The notes under the pieces: model-generated
Database searches by the model: none
What the model was told of the DNA's origin: nothing
Seen by the model: the letters and a program-made list of their open reading frames with translations, nothing else
In this document: in pieces, positions 2-10,687 of the stretch
Layout of the letters: every line of letters begins with the position of its first letter
Numbering within the stretch: position 1 is the first letter of the stretch
Translations under genes and position numbers: made by a program
DNA from: a virus
Reading direction: 5' to 3' (one strand)
Length of the DNA stretch: 22,007 nucleotides
IMG/VR virus record: IMGVR_UViG_3300001678_000045
Span: 1-22,007 of that record

Positions 2-112
2 GTATTTAAAACACTTGATGACTTCTTAGATTTTATTGAGGATATTAACGATTCTTTAAAGGTAGAAGTAGTTACTGATGGTAGTTGGGAGATTGAAAAT
101 GGGAAACATTAA
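2..112 (+). CDS. C-terminal end of a hypothetical protein (5' end outside window)
   Basis: An open frame enters from the left edge and stops at TAA 110-112, giving the last 36 residues of a protein. The fragment is acidic (FLDFIEDIND, then VEVVTDGSWEIENGKH). No domain is recognisable. Its end overlaps the ATG of the next gene at 99, the tight coupling seen through the rest of the rightward block. Function unknown. Confidence 0.6.
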   Translation, partial: VFKTLDDFLDFIEDINDSLKVEVVTDGSWEIENGKH

Positions 113-350
113 GTATAAAAAGAATGGGCGCGTAGCAGTAGACATGTCTATGGAGGATTATAGGGCGTTACTAAAAGGGTTTAATGACTTGAAAGGCGCG
201 TTAAATATGATGGCTGATTGTCACACAATCTATTTATCAGATGTAGGCAAGTTAGATGACCTCATGTATAAATTAAAAAACAGTTTAGGCTTTATTGATG
301 GCGAGGGTTACTACTCAGATTCAACTTTGCCAACTTTAAATCCACGCTAG
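99..350 (+). CDS. Small hypothetical early protein, 83 aa
   Basis: The frame opens at ATG 78, but ATG 99 is the better start because a GGGAG ribosome-binding site lies about 7 nt upstream at 87-91. The protein begins MGNIKYKKNGRVAVDMSMED and is a mixed-charge soluble protein with no signal peptide or membrane segment. No family is recognised. It is the first complete gene of a run of small, overlapping rightward genes that looks like a phage early or accessory operon. The stop at 348-350 is followed at once by the strong ribosome-binding site of the next gene. Confidence 0.6.
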   Translation: MGNIKYKKNGRVAVDMSMEDYRALLKGFNDLKGALNMMADCHTIYLSDVGKLDDLMYKLKNSLGFIDGEGYYSDSTLPTLNPR

Positions 351-358
351 GAGGAATT

Positions 359-439
359 ATGGGTGACTTTTTATTTTGGTTTATCTGTGTAGGATTCATT
401 TTTATGGTGGGTCTAGAGGTAGGTAGAAACAATGAATAA
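359..439 (+). CDS. 26-aa single-pass membrane peptide
   Basis: This short ORF has an excellent AGGAGG site at 350-355, five to nine bases before ATG 359. The peptide starts MGDFLFWFICVGFIFMVG and is one hydrophobic helix followed by a short polar tail (LEVGRNNE). It should insert in the inner membrane. Its last codons overlap the start of the next gene at 432, so the two are probably translationally coupled. Many phages carry such peptides for host modulation or lysis timing, but nothing here shows the role. It is supported by the ribosome-binding site and the packing, not by homology. Confidence 0.55.
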   Translation: MGDFLFWFICVGFIFMVGLEVGRNNE

Positions 440-659
440 CAAATACTTAACAATGACCCGTAAAGGGAAAAACTATACAGAAACACAAGAAATGTGTCCT
501 AACTGTACGGCTGAAGTCACTATCAAGACAGATGGACTAGACAGTTGCTCAGAATGTGGGCACAAGGAAATGTTACCTTGTAGTATGTGTGAGTTAATGC
601 ACGAATTCAAATGTGATTGGAATGAGAAAACTAGATGCACCGCATTTCCAATAAACTAA
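432..659 (+). CDS. Small double zinc-ribbon protein, 75 aa
   Basis: The protein has eight cysteines arranged as two possible zinc sites: C22/C25 with C39/C42 (CPNC...CSEC), then C50/C53 with C61 and C69 (CSMC...C...C). The first half matches the classic zinc-ribbon spacing, so it probably binds nucleic acid or a partner protein. An AGGTAGG site lies just before ATG 432; a second in-frame ATG at 453 cannot be ruled out. The gene overlaps its upstream neighbour by 8 nt and its downstream neighbour by 25 nt. Similar zinc ribbons are common as phage early proteins that bind host machinery, but the target cannot be told from sequence. Confidence 0.65.
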   Translation: MNNKYLTMTRKGKNYTETQEMCPNCTAEVTIKTDGLDSCSECGHKEMLPCSMCELMHEFKCDWNEKTRCTAFPIN

Positions 660-1057
660 AACTTAATGTAGAATACGATACCATGGTTGAATACACAGAC
701 AAGGAAATCAAGGACATCCTAGAGAAGTCCGAGGTGATGCAACGGTTTATACTCGGGGCACACGATATTCTGTCCGATATGGACTATAACACTGCCTTTA
801 AATTCATATTAGGTATAACTCAGACTGCACAAGAGCATATAGCAAACACGTTAATAGAGATAGCGGACGGTAGGGGCACAGAAGAACAGTTACGGCGTGT
901 CATAACTCACGTAGCACCCGCTTGTTTGATACTAACACAGACGCTTTACTCAGCGTTAGACAGTAGTGTACTTATAGATAGGTCGCGATTTGTAGATGAA
1001 GTAGCACGACGCGCAACCGAAACAGCAGATACAGCAATTATAAAACTTGGGGGATGA
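635..1057 (+). CDS. Hypothetical helical protein, up to 140 aa
   Basis: The reading frame runs from ATG 635 to TGA 1055-1057. The start is uncertain. ATG 635 has a weak GGA/GAG-type site about 8-14 nt upstream inside the previous gene, while in-frame ATG 683 begins MVEYTDKEIKDILEKSEVMQ, which looks like a natural amino terminus but has no clear ribosome-binding site. The sequence is mostly predicted helix (KFILGITQTAQEHIANTLIE) with a basic, Thr-rich end (FVDEVARRATETADTAIIKL). No family is recognised. It lies inside the run of small early-type genes. Confidence 0.55.
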   Translation: MHRISNKLKLNVEYDTMVEYTDKEIKDILEKSEVMQRFILGAHDILSDMDYNTAFKFILGITQTAQEHIANTLIEIADGRGTEEQLRRVITHVAPACLILTQTLYSALDSSVLIDRSRFVDEVARRATETADTAIIKLGG

Positions 1058-1061
1058 CATT

Positions 1062-1469
1062 ATGCTCATTAGCAAAGACACGGCGCAACTTATATTCACA
1101 GAACGGGAAGGGAGGGAGTCATTTAAAGCACCCTTCGAGGACATTGAGAAACTAGCACTAACTTTATATGCTACGTTAAGAAAGAAACCCGAGCATGAAT
1201 TCATGTTGATGTACTATCGTGAGGACGAGCATATTATGCTCATGGATTTACAAGAGAACTTCTCTAAGAAGTTTGCGGATGCAGTAGAAACAATCGAACA
1301 TTACTCGTGTCAGAACAGAGAAATTGAACGGGAGTATTGTACTGTTGGTATCTATTCAATTGAAGGCTCAAAGGGTATGCTGAAGCATTGGATACTGCAC
1401 GATTTAAAGTACATGCAGGCTGAACTAGATAAGGAGTCTTATGAGCGCGAGCAACAATCAAACCGTTGA
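1062..1469 (+). CDS. Hypothetical soluble protein, 135 aa
   Basis: The best start is ATG 1062, because a GGGGGA site at 1049-1054 sits 7-8 nt upstream; an in-frame TTG at 1047 lies over that site and is unlikely. The protein begins MLISKDTAQLIFTEREGRES and is charged, without membrane segments. The end overlaps the next gene by 29 nt, and the last codons carry the AAGGAG site of that gene. No domain is recognised. One copy of the recurrent GATTTAAAG 9-mer lies in this gene at 1401-1409 (codons for Asp-Leu-Lys). Confidence 0.6.
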   Translation: MLISKDTAQLIFTEREGRESFKAPFEDIEKLALTLYATLRKKPEHEFMLMYYREDEHIMLMDLQENFSKKFADAVETIEHYSCQNREIEREYCTVGIYSIEGSKGMLKHWILHDLKYMQAELDKESYEREQQSNR

Positions 1470-1812
1470 TATCAATTTAAACATTAACGTGAACTTAAAC
1501 ATTAATACTATGGATGCAGAGGCTATTACTACATACGAGTCACCATTAGATGATGTGTTTGACGATGAGTTAGATGAGGCGCGGTCTATGCCCGATGACA
1601 AGAAGGACGCACTATTTAAAGTAGTTGACGTACTGATGACGAAGGGCGAGAAAGACTTTTGCGTGTCGCTGATGACAGAGGCGCCACTGTTTGTGATAGC
1701 AGAGCACTTGTTGCTTTGTTTAGGTGAGGATATAGAAGGCTTTAGCCTAGGACAAGCCTACTTGGTAGTGGAGAATTTTAAGAATAGGCAAGACAAAGGT
1801 ACCCTACAATAG
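1441..1812 (+). CDS. Acidic hypothetical protein with Asn/Ile-rich N-terminus, 123 aa
   Basis: ATG 1441 follows an AAGGAG site inside the end of the previous gene. The first 25 residues form an alternating polar/hydrophobic stretch (VDINLNINVNLNIN) that would suit a beta strand or a self-associating segment. The rest is acidic (DDVFDDELDEARSMPDDKKD) and then helical. No homology is recognised. Acidic small phage proteins sometimes mimic DNA or bind host enzymes, but this is only a general possibility here. Confidence 0.55.
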   Translation: MSASNNQTVDINLNINVNLNINTMDAEAITTYESPLDDVFDDELDEARSMPDDKKDALFKVVDVLMTKGEKDFCVSLMTEAPLFVIAEHLLLCLGEDIEGFSLGQAYLVVENFKNRQDKGTLQ

Positions 1813-1814
1813 AA

Positions 1815-1979
1815 ATGACACTATATGAGCAACTACGTAAGGACTCAACTATCTCTTGGCATAAACTTTATGCAGAGGAAAGAGCGAAGAGAAAGGAAAT
1901 TGAAACCAAGTACAACTTCCTTGCCAAGAAGGTACAAGAATTTGCTTTGGAAGAGAAGAACAAAATAAAGGAGAAGTGA
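1815..1979 (+). CDS. 54-aa charged coiled-coil peptide
   Basis: ATG 1815 starts three bases after the upstream gene ends. The product (MTLYEQLRKDSTISWHKLY, then a Glu/Lys-rich helix ending EEKNKIKEK) is almost entirely predicted helix with heptad-like spacing. No strong ribosome-binding site is visible, so translation may depend on coupling to the upstream gene. The end of the frame supplies the AAGGAG site of the next gene, whose ATG lies two bases after the stop. This fits the gap exactly, which is the main support for it being real. Confidence 0.5.
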   Translation: MTLYEQLRKDSTISWHKLYAEERAKRKEIETKYNFLAKKVQEFALEEKNKIKEK

Positions 1980-1980
1980 C

Positions 1981-2208
1981 ATGCCCGTTTATGTCGATTT
2001 AGTAAAACAGAAATTCGGATTATTAGAAGTACTTAGTCGTGCTCCGTCCCGCAAGTCAGACCGACGCGCGATGTGGAACTGTACGTGCAAGTGTGGTAAC
2101 AAGCATACAGTGTCCACCGCAGACCTACGAGGTGGACGTGTCCGTTCTTGTGGTTGTTTGATGTTAGAAAGGGACATCAAAGGGCGGGTGCAGAAAAAAG
2201 AATTATGA
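1981..2208 (+). CDS. Small Cys-rich DNA-binding-type protein, 75 aa
   Basis: The protein carries the pattern GLLEVLSRAPSR...W-x-C-x-C-x-C-G ... DLRGGRVRSCGC, with cysteines 34, 36, 38, 57 and 59. This is the short zinc-binding module often found at the front of phage AP2/HNH homing endonucleases and also as a free-standing small phage protein. It probably binds DNA. No nuclease domain follows, so this copy is stand-alone. A strong AAGGAG site lies 5-10 nt before ATG 1981. The gene closes the first rightward cluster and directly abuts the long intergenic region. Role in the phage unknown. Confidence 0.6.
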   Translation: MPVYVDLVKQKFGLLEVLSRAPSRKSDRRAMWNCTCKCGNKHTVSTADLRGGRVRSCGCLMLERDIKGRVQKKEL

Positions 2209-2243
2209 AAAAAGTTACTCTAAGTGGATAATCAGAGTAAACT
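2208..2243 (-). terminator. Leftward intrinsic terminator (possible)
   Basis: AGTTACTCT (2213-2221) pairs with AGAGTAAACT (2234-2243), one A bulged, around a 12-nt loop. An A-run at 2208-2213 precedes it, so the minus-strand RNA would have the hairpin followed by a run of U. On the plus strand no U-run follows. It would stop transcripts coming leftward out of the intergenic region. Confidence 0.45.
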
Positions 2244-2290
2244 AGATATTTGTTTATACTTTAAGGAGTTTAAGCAAAGTTGACGGTTAT

Positions 2291-2317
2291 CCCTCTCCGA
2301 TATGAGGGTGTTTTTTT
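2291..2317 (+). terminator. Rightward intrinsic terminator closing the early cluster
   Basis: CCCTC (2291-2295) pairs with GAGGG (2304-2308), followed by TG and seven T at 2311-2317. The stem is only five pairs, but the T-run is long. It lies 83 bases after the end of the Cys-rich gene and would end the first transcription unit, so anything transcribed downstream needs read-through or its own promoter. Confidence 0.6.
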
Positions 2318-2550
2318 AGTATGTGGGTTTTCGTAATGGTGTAACCCTACAAACGCCCTTGGCTTGAGGTACATACGCAAGTAAGCCAGCGTAAACGGTT
2401 ACTATCATTTCCGTTTATTCCGCGCGCTGTCCCTCGCGTACGCAAAAAGGGACTTTTACTTTTCAGTAGACTCACTACTGCCCAAGGATGTTATCTCCAT
2501 CTATGGGATTTATAGAACGGCGACGGTCACAGTCGTGTGAGTAAGTGACC
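2318..2550 (+). ncRNA. Candidate structured RNA or hairpin-array control region
   Basis: No ORF or tRNA is seen here, yet hairpins follow one another almost without gaps: ACGC+GGCTT (2353-2365) with AAGCC+GCGT (2383-2392); TAAACGG (2392-2398) with CCGTTTA (2411-2417); GTCCCT (2429-2434) with AGGGAC (2448-2453), then a T-rich tail; CAGTAG (2464-2469) with CTACTG (2475-2480); CCCA+GGATG with CATCT+TGGG (2481-2507). Last, GCGAC (2520-2524) with GTCGT (2532-2536) encloses GGTCAC, which also matches GTGACC (2545-2550), an H-type pseudoknot layout. The loop at 2470-2475 (ACTCAC) matches GTGAGT at 2537-2542. Two G-U pairs form only in plus-strand RNA. It could be a leader RNA of the replication genes, a free ncRNA, or an origin of replication. 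No known RNA family is recognised. Confidence 0.45.
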
Positions 2551-2573
2551 ACCTAATTTAAGAATAATATAAT
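2545..2573 (+). promoter_or_regulatory. Sigma70-like promoter for the replication block, with inverted repeat at -35
   Basis: A perfect -10 box TATAAT (2568-2573) lies exactly 17 nt after GTGACC (2545-2550), which matches four of six bases of the -35 consensus. Transcription would start near 2580, just ahead of the ribosome-binding site of the gene at 2597. The -35 box is one arm of an inverted repeat (GGTCAC 2525-2530 / GTGACC 2545-2550, 14-nt gap), which could be an operator. The -10 area is A/T-only, which alone can give false matches. Confidence 0.5.
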
Positions 2574-2596
2574 AATAACAATAGAAGGAGAATAAG

Positions 2597-2725
2597 ATGG
2601 AAAACATTGATGCGTTTGAAGTACTACTAGGACTAGGAATACTGTGGCTTGCGTACTTGTCGGTTTACATTGTAGACCTCAATAAACCTACTTTCAGTAG
2701 AAAGGGGTATAAAGATGGAAAATAA
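2597..2725 (+). CDS. 42-aa single-pass membrane peptide
   Basis: ATG 2597 follows a good AAGGAG site at 2585-2590. The peptide begins MENIDAFEVLLGLGILWLAY and has one hydrophobic helix (about residues 9-26) followed by a basic tail (FSRKGYKDGK). It is the first gene after the structured intergenic region and overlaps the next gene by 11 nt. The basic tail suggests a cytoplasmic C-terminus. Function unknown; a membrane-located early peptide is a reasonable guess. Confidence 0.6.
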   Translation: MENIDAFEVLLGLGILWLAYLSVYIVDLNKPTFSRKGYKDGK

Positions 2726-3158
2726 AGTTTTATTAACAGAGGCTGATGTATTAAAGTGGCTACAAGAGTTTGTTAAGGAGTCGTTAGAGTTTAGCGAGGG
2801 TGATGAGCCTTATATGCTGTCTAGAGCATCAGATTTACTGAGTAGAGTACAGAAAGAAATGATTTTAGGCTACGAGCCAGAGATAGCGGGGTCTAGTGTG
2901 TCAGTACGGCACGGTTCCTTAGTTTCTGGCAGTGATAGTCTATATGTACTGCATGTCGATTTCACAGACAACCACTTCAAGAAGATTGATGTAACCACCT
3001 ACCTAACAGGCAGTAACAACTACTTGCGGGACTCCTACAAGGAGGCTTTCAGTTTCTCCCCTCATGTAGTACAATGGGATGATTATAAGTTAAACCTCAC
3101 CGCAAAAGAGTTGTATAGCATGAGCAACCATAACGTGTTGGAGGAAGGGGAGTGGTAA
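2715..3158 (+). CDS. Hypothetical protein, 147 aa
   Basis: ATG 2715 is preceded by an AAAGGGG-type site at 2700-2706. The protein starts with a helical, acidic part (MENKVLLTEADVLKWLQEFV) and continues with a region of likely beta strands around YVLHVDFTDNHFKKIDVTTY. There are no recognisable catalytic motifs, signal peptide or membrane segment. It stands between a membrane peptide and the DNA polymerase and is probably co-transcribed with the replication genes. No family is recognised. Confidence 0.6.
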   Translation: MENKVLLTEADVLKWLQEFVKESLEFSEGDEPYMLSRASDLLSRVQKEMILGYEPEIAGSSVSVRHGSLVSGSDSLYVLHVDFTDNHFKKIDVTTYLTGSNNYLRDSYKEAFSFSPHVVQWDDYKLNLTAKELYSMSNHNVLEEGEW

Positions 3159-3230
3159 ATGCAACAAATGTACGCAGACGAGGCTTGGGAAGAATTCTGG
3201 CAACGTGTTGAGAGGAATAAAAAGAATTAA
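3159..3230 (+). CDS. 23-aa peptide between the 147-aa gene and DNA polymerase
   Basis: ATG 3159 comes immediately after the stop of the preceding gene and is preceded by a strong AGGAAGGGGAG site, stronger than most in the window. The product (MQQMYADEAWEEFWQRVERN plus KKN) is an amphipathic helix with three Trp/Phe positions. Such a good ribosome-binding site for so short a frame suggests a real micropeptide, but no homology can be claimed. Confidence 0.4.
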   Translation: MQQMYADEAWEEFWQRVERNKKN

Positions 3231-3239
3231 CTATAAATA

Positions 3240-3264
3240 ACGCTACTTAGAACTAGGGTAGCGT
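3240..3264 (+). promoter_or_regulatory. Perfect 7-bp hairpin in the leader of the DNA polymerase gene
   Basis: ACGCTAC (3240-3246) pairs with GTAGCGT (3258-3264) around an 11-nt loop. There is no T-run, so it is not a typical terminator on either strand. It ends 19 nt before the polymerase ATG and close to its AAGGAG site (about 3272-3277). It could be an RNase III site or a translation or mRNA-stability element. Confidence 0.35.
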
Positions 3265-3283
3265 ACAACTTAAGGAGACCTAT

Positions 3284-5113
3284 ATGCTCGTATGGAAAAA
3301 CGGGCTAAAGGACAAGCAACCCGTACAGGGTAGGTTAGACATGCCTGTGCCTTTACCCGAGGATTTAAAGGATTATGAACACCCAGAATTACCTAAGATA
3401 CCAGAAGGAGTACCTTTTGCGTTTGACACTGAAACTACGGGTCTATTTCCTCACGATAGTGACCGTATTGTTGGCTATTCCGTTAGTATTGTTGGCGGGG
3501 CTAGTTTTTATGTTGCTTTTCGTCATCATGGGGACGATGGCAATATGGATGAGCAGGTAGCGCTCGACTATTTAAAGTACCTAATGGAACTGCCTAATCT
3601 TAAGATTATGGCAAACGCTAACTTCGACTTACGGTTTGTTATGGCAGAGGGCATTACACCTAAAGCACCTTTCTTTGATGTGTTGCTTGCCGAGAGGCTG
3701 ATACACGAGTACCGAAGTAGTTACTCACTAGACGCACTTGGTGAGGTATACACAGGTGAAGGTAAAGAAGATGACCTACTCTATGAATGGTGTCACCAGA
3801 CATTTGGAGGTCGTAAAGGTCGTTCTCAAGCGGGTAACATTTGGCGCGCACCCATCAAACTAGTAGAACCCTACGCTCGAATAGATGCGGAACTAACGCT
3901 TAAAATCTACGAAAAACAACTACAATTACTTAAACAGGCTGATGTTGAGGAAATAACTCAACTTGAAATGTCACTAATAGAGCCTATCTTACATATGACT
4001 TGTCGCGGTATCCGCATGGATATGGATAAGTTGTATAGCCTTGGCGAAGAACTAGTCAAGGAAAGCAAGGAACTGAACAAGAATCTGACAGGTCTAGTTG
4101 GACGGACGGTGAATGTAAATGCGGGCAGAGATATCCAGCGTGCATTTGACGATTTAAAGGTGTCTTATCCGACAACAGACAAAGGCAACCCGTCGTTTAC
4201 GGCAGACTTTTTGAAGAGTTGTGATGCACCTATTGCAAAAGCAATCAGCGCGTGTCGCAAAAACACCAAACTAATGAACTCCTTTATTGAAGGCGCTTAC
4301 AAGAAGTATGTGACTCGCGGAAGGTTGTACTCGGGGTTTAATCAGATTGGCGCCGTAACAGGTAGGATGTCCTCATCTAGACCTAACCTCCAACAGACAC
4401 CTAGAGACGAGCGATTCAGAGAGTTATTCATTGCAGACGAAGGTGAAACCTTGGTTGGTATCGACTACTCTCAGATTGAGCCTCGTTTAGCCCTTCACTA
4501 TTGCTCAGGTAGCGTGGCGGAGGATTTAAAGACTCTATTTAAGACTAAGCCCGAGTCAGACTTTTATGCCATATTAATGACAAGCGCACCAGATGTGGAA
4601 CGTCAGACTATGAAGATGGTACTACTCGCTCAGTTATACGGACAAGGTGAGGCGTCACTATCACTTAAACTAGGAGACGCTGTAACAGGTAAGCGTATTC
4701 TAAGCGGATTTAATGCTAAATTCCCTTTCTTTAGGGAGTTAGCCAAGCAAGTTTCAACCACTGCTCGTACACGTAAGTACATTAAGACAGTAGGAAACAG
4801 ACGATGTAACTATCAAGGCGCAGACTCTACTACTATTCACAAGGCACCTAATCGTTTGATTCAAGGTGGCGCGGCGGATATTATGAAGAAGGCGATTGTT
4901 GATTTATGGGAGTCTGGATGGTGTGCCGATGATAAATTAGGTGCCCCCATAGCAGTTGTGCACGATGAACTTATATTCAGCACGAGGCTCCAGGGTGACG
5001 ATTTAAAGTTGGCGCTTGCCGAGCTGGAAAGAACGATGGTCGAAACATATTCATTAACATGCCCACTACATGCAGAATCCAATATTGGACAATCGTGGTG
5101 GGATATTCATTAG
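3284..5113 (+). CDS. polA: Family A DNA polymerase with 3'-5' exonuclease, 609 aa
   Basis: This replicative polymerase has the Klenow-type two-domain layout and no 5'-3' exonuclease domain. The proofreading domain shows Exo I FDTETTGL (D48, E50), Exo II NANFDLRF (D115) and Exo III YARID (Y197, D201). The polymerase domain shows motif A GIDYSQIEPR (D394), motif B RQTMKMVLLAQLYG (R440, K444, Y452) and motif C VHDEL (H560, D561, E562). All catalytic acids are present, so both activities should work. The residue matching E. coli Pol I Phe762 is Leu448, a variant reported as frequent in marine virioplankton and linked by its authors to slower, possibly temperate replication. ATG 3284 has an AAGGAG site 6-11 nt upstream. 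It heads the pol/nuclease/helicase cluster. Confidence 0.95.
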   Translation: MLVWKNGLKDKQPVQGRLDMPVPLPEDLKDYEHPELPKIPEGVPFAFDTETTGLFPHDSDRIVGYSVSIVGGASFYVAFRHHGDDGNMDEQVALDYLKYLMELPNLKIMANANFDLRFVMAEGITPKAPFFDVLLAERLIHEYRSSYSLDALGEVYTGEGKEDDLLYEWCHQTFGGRKGRSQAGNIWRAPIKLVEPYARIDAELTLKIYEKQLQLLKQADVEEITQLEMSLIEPILHMTCRGIRMDMDKLYSLGEELVKESKELNKNLTGLVGRTVNVNAGRDIQRAFDDLKVSYPTTDKGNPSFTADFLKSCDAPIAKAISACRKNTKLMNSFIEGAYKKYVTRGRLYSGFNQIGAVTGRMSSSRPNLQQTPRDERFRELFIADEGETLVGIDYSQIEPRLALHYCSGSVAEDLKTLFKTKPESDFYAILMTSAPDVERQTMKMVLLAQLYGQGEASLSLKLGDAVTGKRILSGFNAKFPFFRELAKQVSTTARTRKYIKTVGNRRCNYQGADSTTIHKAPNRLIQGGAADIMKKAIVDLWESGWCADDKLGAPIAVVHDELIFSTRLQGDDLKLALAELERTMVETYSLTCPLHAESNIGQSWWDIH

Positions 5114-5121
5114 GAGAAACA

Positions 5122-5361
5122 ATGTTGAACTCAGATTTTGAAGAAATAAAGGATGTTGTCACGGAACGTATGCACGAATTGAACGAGGCTGTGGACTGCC
5201 TAGATATAGACTACGAGGCTAAGCAGTACTTATTTGGACAGGTTAAGGAGGTACAGTTGGGTATGTATACAAAACTAGACTGCCTATCTAAGTGTATTAG
5301 ACGTATGGACGGGTTAATTCTGACCTCTGAACTACTGTCTGAGCACTACTCAAGTGAGTGA
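5122..5361 (+). CDS. Hypothetical helical protein, 79 aa
   Basis: ATG 5122 is chosen because TAGGAGAAAC lies just upstream, directly after the polymerase stop; the frame is open further back to 5059 but would overlap polymerase by 55 nt for no reason. The protein (MLNSDFEEIKDVVTERMHEL...) is acidic and helical, with three cysteines (in DCLD, LDCLSKC) too widely spaced to suggest a zinc site. It ends overlapping the next gene by 8 nt. Its place between polymerase and nuclease suggests a replication accessory role, but nothing in the sequence shows it. Confidence 0.6.
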   Translation: MLNSDFEEIKDVVTERMHELNEAVDCLDIDYEAKQYLFGQVKEVQLGMYTKLDCLSKCIRRMDGLILTSELLSEHYSSE

Positions 5362-5791
5362 GTCGTCATTTGCACGTTCATTACGTGATGGCGTACGTAA
5401 GAAAGCGAAGGAACTAGGGCACAAGGTAGCGTGGACTAGACTTGAGTGCTCTCTGGCGGGGATACCCGATGTGGTGTTCTCTATTGATGGCAACCATCAC
5501 TTTATCGAATTAAAGTGCGTGGCTAACTTTCCGAAGAGGGAGGCAACTCCTATCAGACTACCTCACTTTACAGCAGACCAGAAATGGTGGCTGAAGCAAC
5601 ACGGAGAGGCTGGCGAGTATTGCTGGGTCTTTTTAAAGGTACAGAAAGAGTATTTCCTATACCATTGGAACAATTTAGATGGGCTAGGAGATTGGAACAA
5701 GAAGGAGTTATTCATGAACTGCGACTTCTACGCGAAGGGACGCATGGATTACGAAGGATTTATAAAGGAGATAACAGATGAGCGACTTTAA
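5354..5791 (+). CDS. VRR-NUC family nuclease, 145 aa
   Basis: The protein is a stand-alone VRR-NUC domain, a branch of the PD-(D/E)XK nucleases. The core is visible: GIPDVVF (D39) followed by FIELK (E52, K54), with helical flanks ARSLRDGVRKKAKELG before and FTADQKWWLKQHGEAG after. Phage VRR-NUC proteins are small structure-specific nucleases, often found beside an SNF2 helicase as here. The start is GTG 5354, overlapping the upstream stop by 8 nt, with no strong ribosome-binding site, so expression is probably by translational coupling. The end overlaps the helicase gene by 14 nt. Likely role: processing branched DNA during replication or recombination. Confidence 0.85.
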   Translation: MSESSFARSLRDGVRKKAKELGHKVAWTRLECSLAGIPDVVFSIDGNHHFIELKCVANFPKREATPIRLPHFTADQKWWLKQHGEAGEYCWVFLKVQKEYFLYHWNNLDGLGDWNKKELFMNCDFYAKGRMDYEGFIKEITDERL

Positions 5792-7208
5792 ATTTAAAAC
5801 CAAGCCGTATGCACACCAAGTACAGGCTTTTGAGCTGATGAAGGATAGAAAGTCCTTCGCTTTAATTGCAGATATGGGTACAGGTAAGTCTAAGATGCTA
5901 CTTGATAACGCCGTATATCTATATAACAAGGGTGAAATCGACGCGCTACTCGTATTAGCACCGTCTGGTGTGCACCAGAACTGGGTAATCAATGAGATAC
6001 CAACCCATTTAGCACTCCCTAATCATATGCAAGCATCTGCTGCGTGGAACTCCTCGATGCGGAAAGAAGATAAAGAAGCGCTGGCTGCAGTTGTCGATTT
6101 AAAGTTGGGCTTACGTATAGTGTGCATGAACGTAGAGGCTCTAATCACTAAGAAGGGACTAAGCTTCGTTCAAAAGTACCTAGCCATGTTTCGTACGATG
6201 CTGGTGTTAGATGAGTCCCAGAAGTTTAAGACTCCACAGGCGAAGCGTACTAAAGCCGTTTTAAAGTTGGCAAAGCACGCACCTTACAAGAGAATCTCCA
6301 CAGGCACTCCCATAACTAACTCCCCATTAGACGCATACAGTCAATTTGCGTTCCTAGACCCATACATATTAGGCTTTCAGTCCTTCGTGGCATTTAGAGC
6401 GCATTTCGCTATCTTAGAAAGGAAGATAAATCATACACAACAACGACAGTACACGCAAGTCATAGGTTTTCAGAACTTGGAAGAATTACAGTTGTTGATT
6501 AAGCCTCACTCGTATCGCGTGACCAAGGAAGAGTGTCTTGACCTACCAGACAAGATTTATGAGAAGGTGTACTTTGAGCTATCCGCTGAACAAAAGCGTC
6601 TATATAAAGCAATCAAGGAAGAGGTGATGTTGGAGTTTAACGAAGGGCGCGTGACGGCTCAACTAGCAATCACTAAACTACTACGCCTATCTCAGATTAT
6701 CTCTGGTTTTATGACTACTGAGGACGGTGACACTATTTCTATAAAAGGTGGCGATGTTAAGTTAAAGCTCTTAAAGGACATCCTAGAGGACAACCAAGAG
6801 AAAACTATCATATGGTGTCGCTTTATCCATGAAATACGTCAGATTACAGAAATGCTTGGGGATGAATGTGTCGCGTATTACGGAGCCACTGAATCAGACG
6901 ACCGTGCTAAGAACGTACAGGACTTTCAACTTAGCCCTAAGATTAGATACTTCGTGGCTAACAAGACAGCCTCTACTGGTCTGACACTAACCAGTGCGTC
7001 TAGCGTCATCTATTACTCTAATTCGTACTCACTTGAGGACAGACTGCAATCAGAAGATAGGGCGATGCGTATCGGGCAGAAAAAGAATGTAGTGTACCGA
7101 GACCTAGTGGCGCGCAACACCGTAGATGAGAAGATTATCAAGGCGTTGAGGAGCAAACAGAACATAGCAGATATTATATTAAAGGATATTGCAGGATTTA
7201 TTTCTTAA
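5778..7208 (+). CDS. SNF2-family DNA helicase/ATPase, 476 aa
   Basis: Superfamily 2 motifs are present in order: Walker A MGTGKS (about residues 33-38), DESQ motif II (145-148), motif III STGTP (174-178), motif V TASTGLTLTSASSV and motif VI QSEDRAMRIGQ (424-434). The arginine-rich RxxRxGQ end is diagnostic of SNF2/Rad54-like translocases. The size is the short phage form without accessory domains. A GGAGAT site precedes ATG 5778, inside the nuclease gene. No DnaB- or T7 gp4-like helicase occurs in the window, so this enzyme may act at the phage fork, or it may remodel recombination intermediates with the VRR-NUC nuclease. Confidence 0.92.
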   Translation: MSDFKFKTKPYAHQVQAFELMKDRKSFALIADMGTGKSKMLLDNAVYLYNKGEIDALLVLAPSGVHQNWVINEIPTHLALPNHMQASAAWNSSMRKEDKEALAAVVDLKLGLRIVCMNVEALITKKGLSFVQKYLAMFRTMLVLDESQKFKTPQAKRTKAVLKLAKHAPYKRISTGTPITNSPLDAYSQFAFLDPYILGFQSFVAFRAHFAILERKINHTQQRQYTQVIGFQNLEELQLLIKPHSYRVTKEECLDLPDKIYEKVYFELSAEQKRLYKAIKEEVMLEFNEGRVTAQLAITKLLRLSQIISGFMTTEDGDTISIKGGDVKLKLLKDILEDNQEKTIIWCRFIHEIRQITEMLGDECVAYYGATESDDRAKNVQDFQLSPKIRYFVANKTASTGLTLTSASSVIYYSNSYSLEDRLQSEDRAMRIGQKKNVVYRDLVARNTVDEKIIKALRSKQNIADIILKDIAGFIS

Positions 7209-7233
7209 AAAAACTACATTAAGTGCGTAGTTT
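7207..7233 (-). terminator. Leftward intrinsic terminator (possible) after the helicase gene
   Basis: AAACTAC (7211-7217) pairs with GTAGTTT (7227-7233) around a 9-nt loop. Seven A at 7207-7213 give a U-run after the hairpin in minus-strand RNA; plus-strand RNA has only three U. A second small stem, GGGT/ACCC, follows at 7234-7247. The layout copies the leftward terminator at 2208-2243, also placed right after a rightward gene's stop codon. Confidence 0.45.
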
Positions 7234-7281
7234 GGGTATACTAACCCTCATAAACACAGAATTATATAAACAGGAAAAACT

Positions 7282-7599
7282 ATGGAAGAGGATAAAAGCG
7301 TTGTATTCGTTTGTCAACAGCCGTTTAGATTTGTAGACTTAAGTGATGCGTTACGGTACGGTAGATTAGAGTATTTACTACCGCCAGGGGACATCACCGC
7401 AGGAACCGCACCTATCATCAGACAGTTAAAGGTGCTTTTAAAGGATTTTTCTGACGATGACTATATATTAGCAATGGGCGCTCCCGCCGCGATTGCAATG
7501 GTAGGCGCTATTGCCTCTAAGATAAACCACGGGAAAATTAAAGTCCTAACATGGGACAAAAAAGAAAGTCGCTACTATGCGATTGATGTATCACTTTAA
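7282..7599 (+). CDS. Conserved small phage protein, 105 aa
   Basis: The protein starts MEEDKSVVFVCQQPFRFVDL and has an alpha/beta pattern with a central DDYILAMGAPAAIAMVGAIA segment and ends VLTWDKKESRYYAIDVSL. Proteins of this general pattern (YILAxGxPxAI...A followed by LxWDxxxxxYxxxxVxL) are frequent in marine phage replication clusters but have no assigned function as far as I know. The AGGAAA site before ATG 7282 is modest. The 73-base gap upstream holds the hairpin at 7207-7233, so this gene may begin a new unit. Confidence 0.65.
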   Translation: MEEDKSVVFVCQQPFRFVDLSDALRYGRLEYLLPPGDITAGTAPIIRQLKVLLKDFSDDDYILAMGAPAAIAMVGAIASKINHGKIKVLTWDKKESRYYAIDVSL

Positions 7600-7613
7600 A
7601 GAAGGAGAATAAT

Positions 7614-8174
7614 ATGAGCAGTACTTTAAATAGTATGTTTGAGGCGGATGTACCCACTCAAGAGAGCGTAGAGATAGTACATATTGATAAGATATCAAAT
7701 ATTGCCAACGAGCAAGTTGCCAAGAAGGTTGAACTAACTCAGTTAGAGGGTGATGTGAAGCGTGTGAAGAAGGAATATATCCAAATTTCACAGGTTGACC
7801 TACCCGAAGCAATGCAATCGGTAGGTATGCAGTCATTTACACTAGAAAATGGGTCTTCCATTAGTGTTAAAGACCAAATGAGGGCGTCACTACCTAAGAA
7901 AAACAAAGCAGAAGTAGCTAATTGGCTCAAGGAGCATGGCGCGGGTAGCTTGATAAAGGACACAATAGTGGTTGAATTTCCTAAAGGTGACGCATCGCGT
8001 GCCTCGGAATTAGTAGACTTACTAGTTGAAAAAGGTTTTAGTAATTGGTATGAGGACATTAGTATTAATACCGGTTCACTGAAAGCACTAGCAAAAGAAA
8101 AGCTAGCACAGGGGGATGATGTGCCTCTAGAACTCATGGGGATTTTTCTGTACCAAGAGTCAATCATCAAATAA
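7614..8174 (+). CDS. Conserved phage replication-cluster protein, 186 aa
   Basis: A strong AAGGAG site lies about 7 nt before ATG 7614. The N-terminal 70 residues are charged helix with coiled-coil character (VAKKVELTQLEGDVKRVKKE), followed by a compact alpha/beta part with SLPKKNKAEVANWLKEHG and an end LPLELMGIF-like (VPLELMGIFLYQESIIK). This architecture, with the closing LPxELxGxF...IK pattern, is common in phages directly upstream of a putative ssDNA-binding protein, as here. Function is not established; a recombination or ssDNA-related role is suggested only by the neighbourhood. Confidence 0.65.
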   Translation: MSSTLNSMFEADVPTQESVEIVHIDKISNIANEQVAKKVELTQLEGDVKRVKKEYIQISQVDLPEAMQSVGMQSFTLENGSSISVKDQMRASLPKKNKAEVANWLKEHGAGSLIKDTIVVEFPKGDASRASELVDLLVEKGFSNWYEDISINTGSLKALAKEKLAQGDDVPLELMGIFLYQESIIK

Positions 8175-8205
8175 AGCATAACAAATAACAATATAGGAGA
8201 AAAAA

Positions 8206-9000
8206 ATGGCTAATACAAAATTAACCAAGAAAGAGCAAGAAGCACAAGAACTAGCAATCATAGGCTCATTTGAGCAGGATGCAGGTTTAGGAGCAGAGAA
8301 TATTGAGGCGGCAGACCAAGCGATGCCGTTCTTACGTCCTTTGCAAAAGATGTCACCTCAAGTAGACGAGGACAATCCTTCTTACGCCGAAGGCGCTAAA
8401 GCGGGTATGTTCTTTAATACTGCAACCGAGCGGTTGTACGATGAAGTGACGTTTTTACCTGTGTATTATGAGCGTTGTTACATTGAGTGGCAAGCGAGAG
8501 AACAAGGTGGTGGTTTCTTAGGTAAGTTAACACCAACAGAGGCTAAAGCACGAGGTATCACTCGAGGTGAAGATGGTAAAGACTACTTCGAGAATGGTAA
8601 CCAAGCCGCGGACACCCGAGAGTTAACTGTAATCCTCATCAATGGTGATGGTACGTTTGACCCCGCTGTTATCTCAATGTCATCAAGTCAAGTCAAAGCA
8701 TCACGCAAGTTAATGACACAGTTAAACGCTGTGCGAGTTAAAGGCGCTAATGGTATGTTTGCTCCACCGATGTTCGCGAATCAGATAGTGTTGAACTCTA
8801 CACAAGAGTCTAACGACCATGGTACGTGGAAAGGTATTGCATTCTCATTAGATGGCTTTGTAACTGACCAAGACGCATACATGACTGCCAAAGGTCTCTA
8901 TGATGCGGTTAAGGGTGGCTCAAAAAGCGCTAATTATAGCGAAGGTGAGGGAACGCCAGTAACATCTGTTTCAGATGATGGCGATACCATACCGTTTTAA
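8206..9000 (+). CDS. Putative ssDNA-binding protein with SSB-like acidic tail, 264 aa
   Basis: The central part has the pattern AMPFLRPLQKMSPQ, GAKAGMFFNTATERLYDEVTFLP, YYERCYIEW, found in many marine phages beside replication genes and thought to be an ssDNA-binding or annealing protein. The clearest evidence is the C-terminus: a low-complexity linker (SEGEGTPVTSV) leads to SDDGDTIPF, closely matching the DDDIPF tip by which bacterial SSB recruits partner proteins. A TAGGAG site precedes ATG 8206. The gene ends the main replication unit, with a strong terminator starting 9 nt after the stop. The OB fold itself cannot be proved by eye. Confidence 0.65.
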   Translation: MANTKLTKKEQEAQELAIIGSFEQDAGLGAENIEAADQAMPFLRPLQKMSPQVDEDNPSYAEGAKAGMFFNTATERLYDEVTFLPVYYERCYIEWQAREQGGGFLGKLTPTEAKARGITRGEDGKDYFENGNQAADTRELTVILINGDGTFDPAVISMSSSQVKASRKLMTQLNAVRVKGANGMFAPPMFANQIVLNSTQESNDHGTWKGIAFSLDGFVTDQDAYMTAKGLYDAVKGGSKSANYSEGEGTPVTSVSDDGDTIPF

Positions 9001-9008
9001 AGTAGTAC

Positions 9009-9030
9009 CGCCCACTTCGGTGGGCGTTTT
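9009..9030 (+). terminator. Strong rightward terminator with UUCG tetraloop
   Basis: CGCCCAC (9009-9015) and GTGGGCG (9020-9026) form a perfect GC-rich 7-bp stem closed by a TTCG tetraloop, followed by TTTT. It lies directly after the putative ssDNA-binding protein and 20 nt before the exported-protein gene. It should lower expression of the downstream genes relative to the abundant SSB-like protein. Confidence 0.9.
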
Positions 9031-9049
9031 AACTAATCATGAGGAAATA

Positions 9050-9373
9050 ATGAAGAAATTAATAGTAACAGTAGCATTGGCTACAACAATGGGAACTGCA
9101 TCAGCAGGATTTTTTAACAGTAACAATAACGGCTATAACCAAGACAATGGAGTGTTCGCATATAACCCATACTCATTTTTTGACCCACGATGGTTCATGC
9201 AAGAGGCTGAAAACTTCGTAGATGAATTTGACGATGATGACAGTGACCGCTATGGTTACAATGGCTATAACAGTAGTACACACAGCTTTCCAATAACATC
9301 TTTCAATAAGAACTATGTCAGAGGATACGCGAGAGGTTACACTGCCCGTAAAGAACAAATGGCAAATAACTAA
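9050..9373 (+). CDS. Exported Asn/Tyr-rich small protein, 107 aa
   Basis: The start is ATG 9050, preceded by a GAGGAA site; an upstream frame extension to 8975 would run back through the terminator and is rejected. Residues 1-19 are a textbook signal peptide: MKK, hydrophobic core LIVTVALATTM, and an ASA cleavage site before Gly20. The mature part is rich in Asn, Tyr, Gly and Asp (FFNSNNNGYNQDNG, DEFDDDDSDRYGYNGYN) and ends in a basic tail (NYVRGYARGYTARKEQ). It has no cysteines or catalytic motif. The composition loosely recalls bacterial sulfur-globule proteins, but that is a weak guess. A cargo-like (moron) gene changing the host envelope or periplasm is the general expectation. Confidence 0.7.
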   Translation: MKKLIVTVALATTMGTASAGFFNSNNNGYNQDNGVFAYNPYSFFDPRWFMQEAENFVDEFDDDDSDRYGYNGYNSSTHSFPITSFNKNYVRGYARGYTARKEQMANN

Positions 9374-9379
9374 GAATAA

Positions 9380-9394
9380 GTATGTTGTACATAC
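9380..9394. other. Perfect 6-bp inverted repeat with 3-nt loop
   Basis: GTATGT (9380-9385), TGT, ACATAC (9389-9394) lies in the 36-nt gap between the exported-protein gene and the next start, just ahead of its AAGGAGGT site. There is no T-run. It could be an mRNA-end hairpin or an operator. The same two hexamers occur at 2319-2324 and 2371-2376 in the structured intergenic region. Confidence 0.35.
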
Positions 9395-9409
9395 AAGAAG
9401 GAGGTGCCC

Positions 9410-9592
9410 GTGAAAGGTAAAGAAGCAGAAGAAATACTTAAAAGGGTCGATATAAAGTTAAACGACAGAGCTACGGTTAAGCACGATAAACCTAATCTTC
9501 GTATGGCTAGTATGTACGGCGCTTTAAGAGAGGCTTGTTGGATTCATTTGTCGACAGGTGAAGATTTAAAACAAATATTAAGGAGGTTATGA
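9410..9592 (+). CDS. Small hypothetical protein, 60 aa
   Basis: The start is taken as GTG 9410, because the very strong AAGGAGGT at 9398-9405 lies 4-5 nt upstream; the in-frame GTG at 9404 is part of that site. The protein (MKGKEAEEILKRVDIKLNDR...) is basic and helical and ends GEDLKQILRRL. The last codons (AGG AGG TTA TGA) form the ribosome-binding site and overlap the start of the next gene, a clear translational coupling. No family is recognised. Confidence 0.65.
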   Translation: MKGKEAEEILKRVDIKLNDRATVKHDKPNLRMASMYGALREACWIHLSTGEDLKQILRRL

Positions 9593-9864
9593 TGGATTAC
9601 GACAACAATATGTCTGGTGCGTTATTCAAAAACAAGGAAGTTAAGTCAGAGCGCTCCCCACTATACTCGGGTTCTTGCGAGATAGAGGGGGTGGAGTATT
9701 GGATATCTTCTTGGATTAAAACTAGTAAGAAGGGTACCCGCTTTATGTCCCTTGCCTTTACGGCTAAAGAAGAGAAGAGTAGAGAGACCATACAGGAATA
9801 TCGCTCTAAAACCGGCTCCGACATTGGGATAGGTACTGACCCAGACGACGAAATGCCGTTTTAA
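9592..9864 (+). CDS. Small phage protein with SSB-like tail, 90 aa
   Basis: Two adjacent ATG codons occur at 9589 and 9592; 9592 has better spacing from AGGAGG (9581-9586). The core (SPLYSGSCEIEGVEYWISSWIKTSKKGTRFMSLAFTAKEE, read in parts) is a short beta-rich fold of a type common in phages, with a conserved W-I-x-x-W-x-K segment. It ends GTDPDDEMPF, very similar to the acidic tip of bacterial SSB. It may bind ssDNA or dock to SSB partners. It is coupled to the upstream 60-aa gene and followed after 19 nt by the ParB-like gene. Confidence 0.65.
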   Translation: MDYDNNMSGALFKNKEVKSERSPLYSGSCEIEGVEYWISSWIKTSKKGTRFMSLAFTAKEEKSRETIQEYRSKTGSDIGIGTDPDDEMPF

Positions 9865-9883
9865 AATATAAATAGGAGAAAAA

Positions 9884-10687
9884 ATGAACAATTTACAAAT
9901 AGAAACAATCACGCCTGCAATGGCGAAAGGCTACTTAAGTAGAAACTTTAACAACCGTAACTTAACTAAGTCACACGTCGCTTTCTTGAAGAGTGAGATA
10001 TTGGCGGGTAACTATAAACTCAATGGACAGAGTATTGTGTTGGGCACTACGGGGCGTTTACTAGATGGACAGCACCGCTTAACCGCTATTGTCGAAACAG
10101 GTATGGCTGTACAGTCTGTTGTTATGCACGATGTGGATGAGGGGGCGTTTACGACCATTGACACAGGTAAGCAACGAGGTGGTTGTGACGCGCTACATAT
10201 ACATGGCGCTAAGAACTCTAAGCATATCGCATCTGCTATACGCAAGATACTTGATAAGTTTGGCTCACAACGTCGTTTAATTGGCTCAGACACTCATAAG
10301 ATTGGTAACACTGAGTACGTAGACTTTTACAAGAAGAACAGAGCTGACTTAGATGCGTTGTTTGAGTTATCACACGCTTGGGTACTTAAAGGCAGTCGTG
10401 TCCTATCTGAGTCTGAGGCTATGGCGTACGTTTACTTGATGCGTATTGAAGATGATTCAGCCTATGAGTTTATCGAAGAAGTTATTACAGGTGAGCGTAG
10501 AAACCCTAATTCCAACGCCGCGCAGACGCTGAGAAAGAAGTTAATCGATACTAGACTCTCTGGATTGACCGCAAGAGACACACAAAAGCGTGATTGGGTA
10601 CTTCTAGCGTTTAGAAAGTACTACAACAGTAAAGACATCTCTAAGATTATGGTCAGAAGTCCTTTCCGTTTTCTAGAAGATGTGTAA
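9884..10687 (+). CDS. ParB/sulfiredoxin-like domain protein, 267 aa
   Basis: The N-terminal third has the ParB/Srx-type pattern: NRNLTKSHVAFLKSEILAG, then SIVLGTTGRLLDGQHRLTAI with DGQHRL at residues 61-66, then VVMHDVDEGAFTTIDTGKQR. Proteins with this domain and a helical C-terminal half are common in tailed phages. ParB-like domains include nucleotide hydrolases and nucleases, and the exact role of this phage form is not established. A TAGGAG site precedes ATG 9884. It is the last gene of the rightward block and faces the leftward virion operon. Confidence 0.75.
   Translation: MNNLQIETITPAMAKGYLSRNFNNRNLTKSHVAFLKSEILAGNYKLNGQSIVLGTTGRLLDGQHRLTAIVETGMAVQSVVMHDVDEGAFTTIDTGKQRGGCDALHIHGAKNSKHIASAIRKILDKFGSQRRLIGSDTHKIGNTEYVDFYKKNRADLDALFELSHAWVLKGSRVLSESEAMAYVYLMRIEDDSAYEFIEEVITGERRNPNSNAAQTLRKKLIDTRLSGLTARDTQKRDWVLLAFRKYYNSKDISKIMVRSPFRFLEDV

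Follow-up and report, generated by a model that had tools for sequence, protein, structure and literature searches.

The translational operator of gene 32 in phages T4 and RB69 is an H-type pseudoknot located 5' of an A/U-rich ribosome-binding region (PMC535899). The put RNA of phage HK022 is a folded RNA of ~70 nt that lies downstream of an early promoter and acts over at least 10 kb (PMC9378689). Type III antitoxins (ToxI, CptI and TenpI) are tandem H-type pseudoknots of ~35 nt in variable copy number, and in mutants of phage TE a pseudo-ToxI RNA suppresses the type III toxin (PMC5086642). Candidate structured RNAs from metagenomes have also been published (e.g. Genome Biol 2010, PMC2864571); like the RNA described here they were recognised by covariation in uncultured genomes and are of unknown function, whereas the present RNA is not among the 4227 families of Rfam 15 (cmscan). 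New structured RNAs with good support are uncommon in phages, and repeated, diverging pseudoknots across unrelated phages are unusual.

The window, that is, the whole stretch of DNA analysed, is a 22,007-base record of an uncultured virus (IMGVR_UViG_3300001678_000045). Its plus strand carries genes at 78-10687, including that of the DNA polymerase (3284-5113), and its late genes are on the minus strand. A noncoding gap of 388 nt (2209-2596) lies between the gene for a 75-aa protein, similar to part of phage HNH endonucleases, and a 42-aa gene. The original prediction regarded this as the only long intergenic region, and the list of open reading frames leaves no second gap near this length. 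It placed a hairpin array at 2318-2550; the hairpins are present, but the true start is upstream, at about 2263, a 5' module and hairpin A (2291-2308) having been overlooked. The folded element thus spans ~2263-2550, or ~290 nt, inside the gap. In function it would be a phage control element made of RNA, and probably a new one. The explanation we favour, with about as much doubt as confidence, is that of a conserved, structured plus-strand RNA that forms the 5' leader of the DNA-replication operon and acts on its own transcript. The features of the locus are as follows.

2215-2243, plus strand: promoter-like element TTACTC-N17-TAAACT with an inverted repeat (ACTCT..AGAGT) in its spacer; kept in the family 5' of the RNA.
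2263-2289, plus strand: single-stranded 5' module AGGAGNNUAAGCAAAGUUGACGG, near-invariant in the family.
2291-2308, plus strand: hairpin A, CCCUC/GAGGG with loop UCCGAUAU; two-sided change at 5 of 5 pairs, 35 of 35 alignment cells paired.
2323-2350, plus strand: hairpin B; two-sided change at 3 of 5 pairs, 30 of 30 cells paired.
2355-2387, plus strand: pseudoknot PK1, weak in the window, with a stem 1 of only 3 bp; stem 2 is GGCUU/AAGCC.
2394-2415, plus strand: hairpin D, AACGG/CCGUU; two-sided change at 5 of 5 pairs, 42 of 43 cells paired, none of 2000 shuffles as good.
2422-2453, plus strand: pseudoknot PK2, GCGCG.CU.GUCCCU..CGCGU.ACGCAAAA.AGGGAC; found by the motif scan, with the same fold in L001, L010 and L105.
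2464-2507, plus strand: two abutting hairpins, found in the window genome alone.
2520-2550, plus strand: pseudoknot PK3, GCGAC..GGUCAC.A.GUCGU.GUGAGUAA.GUGACC; found by the motif scan, with a counterpart in L002, L020, L106 and L200.
2551-2596, plus strand: A/U-rich stretch with the ribosome-binding site (RBS) GAAGGAG (2584-2590), which is kept in relatives.
2597-2725, plus strand: 42-aa gene, the first 3' of the RNA; its homologues follow the RNA in the family.

The transcript would thus present the near-invariant single-stranded module and hairpin A, then spacer hairpins, one to three H-type pseudoknots and finally the RBS. The sequences quoted in the original prediction were all confirmed at their coordinates: CAGTAG..CTACTG (2464-2480), CCCA..TGGG (2481-2507), GCGAC/GTCGT (2520-2524/2532-2536), GGTCAC/GTGACC (2525-2530/2545-2550) and ACTCAC/GTGAGT (2470-2475/2537-2542). 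Their interpretation fared unevenly. The proposed pseudoknot at 2520-2550 is supported as a further copy of a repeated motif and has counterparts in relatives, and the supposed simple hairpin near 2429-2453 proves to be the second stem of PK2. The abutting hairpins at 2464-2507 exist but find no support beyond the window genome, relatives having one unrelated hairpin or none at this site. The region has eleven 6-bp complementarities, where 5.9 are expected, and the long-range contact suggested between 2470 and 2537 is among them; it has no homologue. An outer stem around PK1 was also considered and was given up in favour of stem 1 of PK1.

With the polymerase as query, 12 related contigs were found. 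In the relatives that hold the region, the gap is flanked by the 75-aa gene and a gene of 42-47 aa, and BLAST aligns mainly the 5' end of the gap; every contig with the 75-aa gene and sequence downstream of it has the RNA next, followed by the 42-47-aa gene. A family search with the 42-aa gene gave no match; it is followed in the window by a 147-aa gene, relatives of which carry DUF3310. Further carriers, among them L020 and L105, came from pattern scans for the conserved 5' part, with matches kept only if they showed the remaining features. These scans of viral contigs also gave many chance matches, which were removed by demanding the rest of the element. As separate observations on these contigs, the polymerase genes of L007-L011 hold an intein-like in-frame insertion of ~285 aa (CVHGDTLL...HHN) which the window polymerase lacks, and DNA methyltransferase-like genes, recognised by eye from the translation, lie upstream of the polymerase in L005 (2800-4445) and L012 (5002-8007).

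The structural alignment was made manually, and a script confirmed that its segments and pseudoknots are present in the loci; MAFFT misaligned L002, L020 and L106. Two-sided standard change with pairing kept was seen in 26 of the 47 base pairs, which bears out the suggestion that the structure is under selection. In total, 275 of 279 alignment cells were paired (248 Watson-Crick and 27 G-U), the rest being one A-C cell and three others. In relatives, stem 1 of PK1 has 4-5 paired bases, with two-sided change at one pair and 37 of 38 cells paired. When, for each stem, the 3' arms were shuffled among sequences, the observed pairing was reached in 1 (A), 9 (B), 0 (D), 7 (PK1 stem 1), 14 (PK3 stem 1) and 101 (PK3 stem 2) of 2000 shuffles; PK2 (514 and 169) and PK1 stem 2 (2000) are too invariant for a stand-alone test. 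An earlier count that pooled the 3' pseudoknots across types reached it in 5 (stem 1) and 3 (stem 2) of 2000. These counts are not probabilities, as the segments were chosen so as to pair and related sequences lack independence (at most seven well-separated types in the family and two Schitoviridae-like ones), and we therefore added an alignment-free motif scan.

The alignment also bears on the strand. The 27 G-U cells against a single A-C indicate that the constrained strand is plus-strand RNA, in agreement with the earlier remark that some pairs form only there, and this excess, with the near-constant terminal G-U of the pseudoknots, fits RNA and not DNA. The same bias counts against a role in replication, as an origin or as a primer RNA that folds on DNA or within an R-loop, for which the noncoding, structured character of the site and its position at the start of the replication genes might speak. 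Neither a GC-skew switch at the site nor notable direct repeats in the gap were found. The hairpin-type origin offered by the original prediction is accordingly disfavoured, and we regard an origin of either kind as highly improbable.

Folding energy was a poor guide to this RNA. Shuffled sequence was barely beaten (2318-2560: plus strand z -1.9, minus strand z -2.9), and this comparison, which had been named as a test of the structure, would reject real structure in several relatives, plus-strand z values over the homologous regions being about 0 to -2.6. Minimum free energy (MFE) folding cannot count pseudoknots, and the case shows that MFE z-scores overlook pseudoknot-rich RNAs which comparison finds. 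Read by comparison of sequences, the gap RNA is folded and conserved, as seen in its stems, pseudoknot fold, strand and repeated design.

The core unit of this design is an H-type pseudoknot of ~31-36 nt, with a stem 1 of 5-6 bp, a loop 1 of 0-3 nt, a stem 2 of 5-6 bp and a loop 3 of mostly 7-10 nt, which often begins GUAC or GUGU and has an A-rich end. Stem 1 ends in a G-U pair in 14 of 17 copies, and the stem sequences vary from copy to copy. There is one copy in L106 and L200, two in L001, L002, L007, L010 and L105, and three in the window, the first of them weak; L020 has two by count and, by eye, possibly a third in an insertion. The motif scan required a stem 1 that starts GC and ends GU, two stems of 5-6 bp and fitting loops. 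On the plus strand of the window it gave two matches, 2422-2453 and 2520-2550, both inside the gap, over a background of 0.5 matches per shuffled window; over all loci compared, the density was 0.42 per 10 kb of single strand. Since the signature was derived from these same copies, the telling part is that the window plus strand holds no further match. Relatives gave one or two matches at the same places, except for L020, the copies of which deviate from the strict motif. Loop-loop pairing between GUAC motifs of the two pseudoknot regions, looked at by eye, is not claimed: carriers could form it, but GUAC is self-complementary and the relative L200 (GUGUAAAA) lacks it.

Copies of this size and variable number recall type III antitoxins, and raise the alternative that the array is freed from its transcript and acts in trans as a decoy that occupies a host RNA-binding protein, such as a type III toxin-antitoxin RNase. 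Suppression of a toxin by phage pseudo-ToxI (PMC5086642) and the presence of the array in unrelated phages would suit such a role. However, the stems differ among the repeats of one array, unlike the near-identical tandem repeats of ToxI, and the gap holds no direct-repeat family. Neither a Rho-independent terminator that would free the RNA in the family nor an adjoining ToxN-type gene was found, the 42-aa and 147-aa genes following instead, and the Rfam searches gave no match to ToxI. We consider the decoy unlikely.

The pattern scans also gave two contigs, L106 and L130, of one very different phage; its primase shares 48% identity with the one from Vibrio phage SBP1 (Schitoviridae). Here the RNA is located upstream of a single-stranded DNA-binding protein (SSB) gene (phrog_743); the space before SSB is only 23 nt in SBP1 and 15 nt in Vibrio phage D497. 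A second Schitoviridae-like phage (L200; SSB 86% identical) keeps the module as AGGAGCATAAAAGCAAAGTTGAC, the A stem, a D-like hairpin and the pseudoknot, in which one pair is compensated (GCTAGT/ACTAGT to GCCAGT/ACTGGT), and loses the following GG and loop A. Both phages have the module, A stem, D and one pseudoknot upstream of SSB, and hairpin B is missing from both. The 5' module is kept in the two as AGGAGCAUAAAGCAAAGUUGAC; its relaxed form is AGGAGNNTAANGCAAAGTTGAC, without the GG, which L200 shows can vary. The GGA of the module could pair with the UCC of loop A, a pairing without covariation. In L200 a small basic ORF of 42 aa (2764-2892) lies directly 3' of the pseudoknot; it is not at this place in L199 or L130. 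Comparison of the sequences shows the RNA to be common to two unrelated phage groups, which, judging from the closest named phages and the sample context, appear to be marine.

Separately, a second conserved, structured-looking stretch lies upstream of the RNA in L199 (~2440-2560) and L200 (~2320-2420), with a compensated change from GTAGATGG..CCACCTAC to GCAGATGG..CCATCTGC and a conserved GGGAGGGTTTACTCTTGAGGA.

The gene 3' of the RNA is therefore that of a 42-47-aa protein in the window family, the small basic ORF in L200 and SSB in L106/L130. The window has its own SSB gene at 9589-9864, not directly 3' of the RNA, and SSB belongs to different families in the two carrier groups. These differing downstream genes weaken a gene-specific cis role. 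The cis-acting leader of the replication genes, put forward in the original prediction, is favoured for the window family, with reserve because the same RNA precedes SSB or a small basic ORF in the Schitoviridae-like phages. For the leader, we suggest that the pseudoknots bind a factor that sets the translation, stability or processivity of their own transcript. This factor would be host-encoded, since no known family of replication proteins to which the RNA could bind is common to the carriers and the downstream gene differs, and a host factor is the simplest binding partner to infer. If so, the RNA offers a way into a host function which phages have exploited repeatedly. A more tentative reading, which we think has a minor share of the probability, is that of a new RNA class: a mobile array of pseudoknots, diversified in sequence and alike in geometry, that acts on a host factor, perhaps a defence RNase or the expression machinery, and has passed from one unrelated phage to another.

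The gene 32 operator is the nearest working analogue of this leader. Both have an H-type pseudoknot upstream of the RBS in a phage replication mRNA. The operator regulates the gene of the SSB that binds it; among the present carriers, SSB is downstream in the Schitoviridae-like phages only. In contrast to the operator, the present RNA has several arrayed pseudoknots and a conserved 5' module, and the first gene in the window family is not SSB. Between pseudoknot and RBS, where the gene 32 operator has UUAAA/UAAA repeats, L007/L105 have CUUUAAAUAAAC and the window has only UUUAAG.

We searched for known families that could account for the RNA. Rfam 15 gave no match to the window at the gathering threshold, in agreement with the earlier statement that no known family is recognised, and permissive scans of the window, L130, L002, L010 and L200 gave none near threshold. 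By BLAST the gap had no real match among 50,697 phage genomes, one in Vibrio breoganii phages being judged chance on inspection, and both matches in a scan of cellular genomes were likewise judged chance, as neither had the following hairpins. In the open-access literature no paper was found that brings together tandem pseudoknots and phages. These results are relevant to a tandem riboswitch, in which the pseudoknots or the 5' module would bind a metabolite and gate the replication genes. The long near-invariant unpaired module, the compact pseudoknots, the leader position and the generic use ahead of different replication genes would all fit, but no riboswitch in Rfam matches, no expression platform is visible and the cellular genomes gave only the two chance matches. 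We regard a riboswitch as quite unlikely.

In the favoured leader, transcription would start at the promoter-like element at 2215-2243, a role that we infer from its sequence and position. Its -35 match is weak, and a simple promoter scan does not call it. A second copy at ~7212-7240 (CTACAT-N17-TATACT) precedes the gene at 7282 without the RNA, and the two are probably a shared phage-controlled promoter. The element with its spacer inverted repeat was also seen in L010 (2825 and 9354) and L012 (13135). From the end of PK3 to the RBS there are 33 nt in the window, and from the last pseudoknot to the RBS ~20 nt in L007/L010, with no terminator found between the two; the RNA is thus most simply a 5' leader. 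Hairpin A and the U-run after it are terminator-like in the window genome only.

A folded leader near the promoter of a long operon also resembles HK022 put, and could be a nascent-RNA antiterminator that acts on RNA polymerase across the 8-kb operon. However, put consists of two stem-loops, ~70 nt in all, which suppress termination on host RNA polymerase, and the present RNA of pseudoknots over ~290 nt. N4-like phages use a phage polymerase to transcribe middle genes such as SSB, and an element for the host polymerase would be hard to explain before an SSB gene so transcribed. We hold antitermination to be very unlikely. Still less credible is a short leader peptide with attenuation, starting at a UUG after AGGAG: both are conserved and in most members stand 10-13 nt apart, but the frame after the UUG is not (LRY in some, TPIW in others), its length ranges from 8 to 35 codons, and what is conserved is the RNA letters.

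Elsewhere in the window, we observed repeats of ~99-103 nt at 16530-17241, inside the late gene at 14707-17472.
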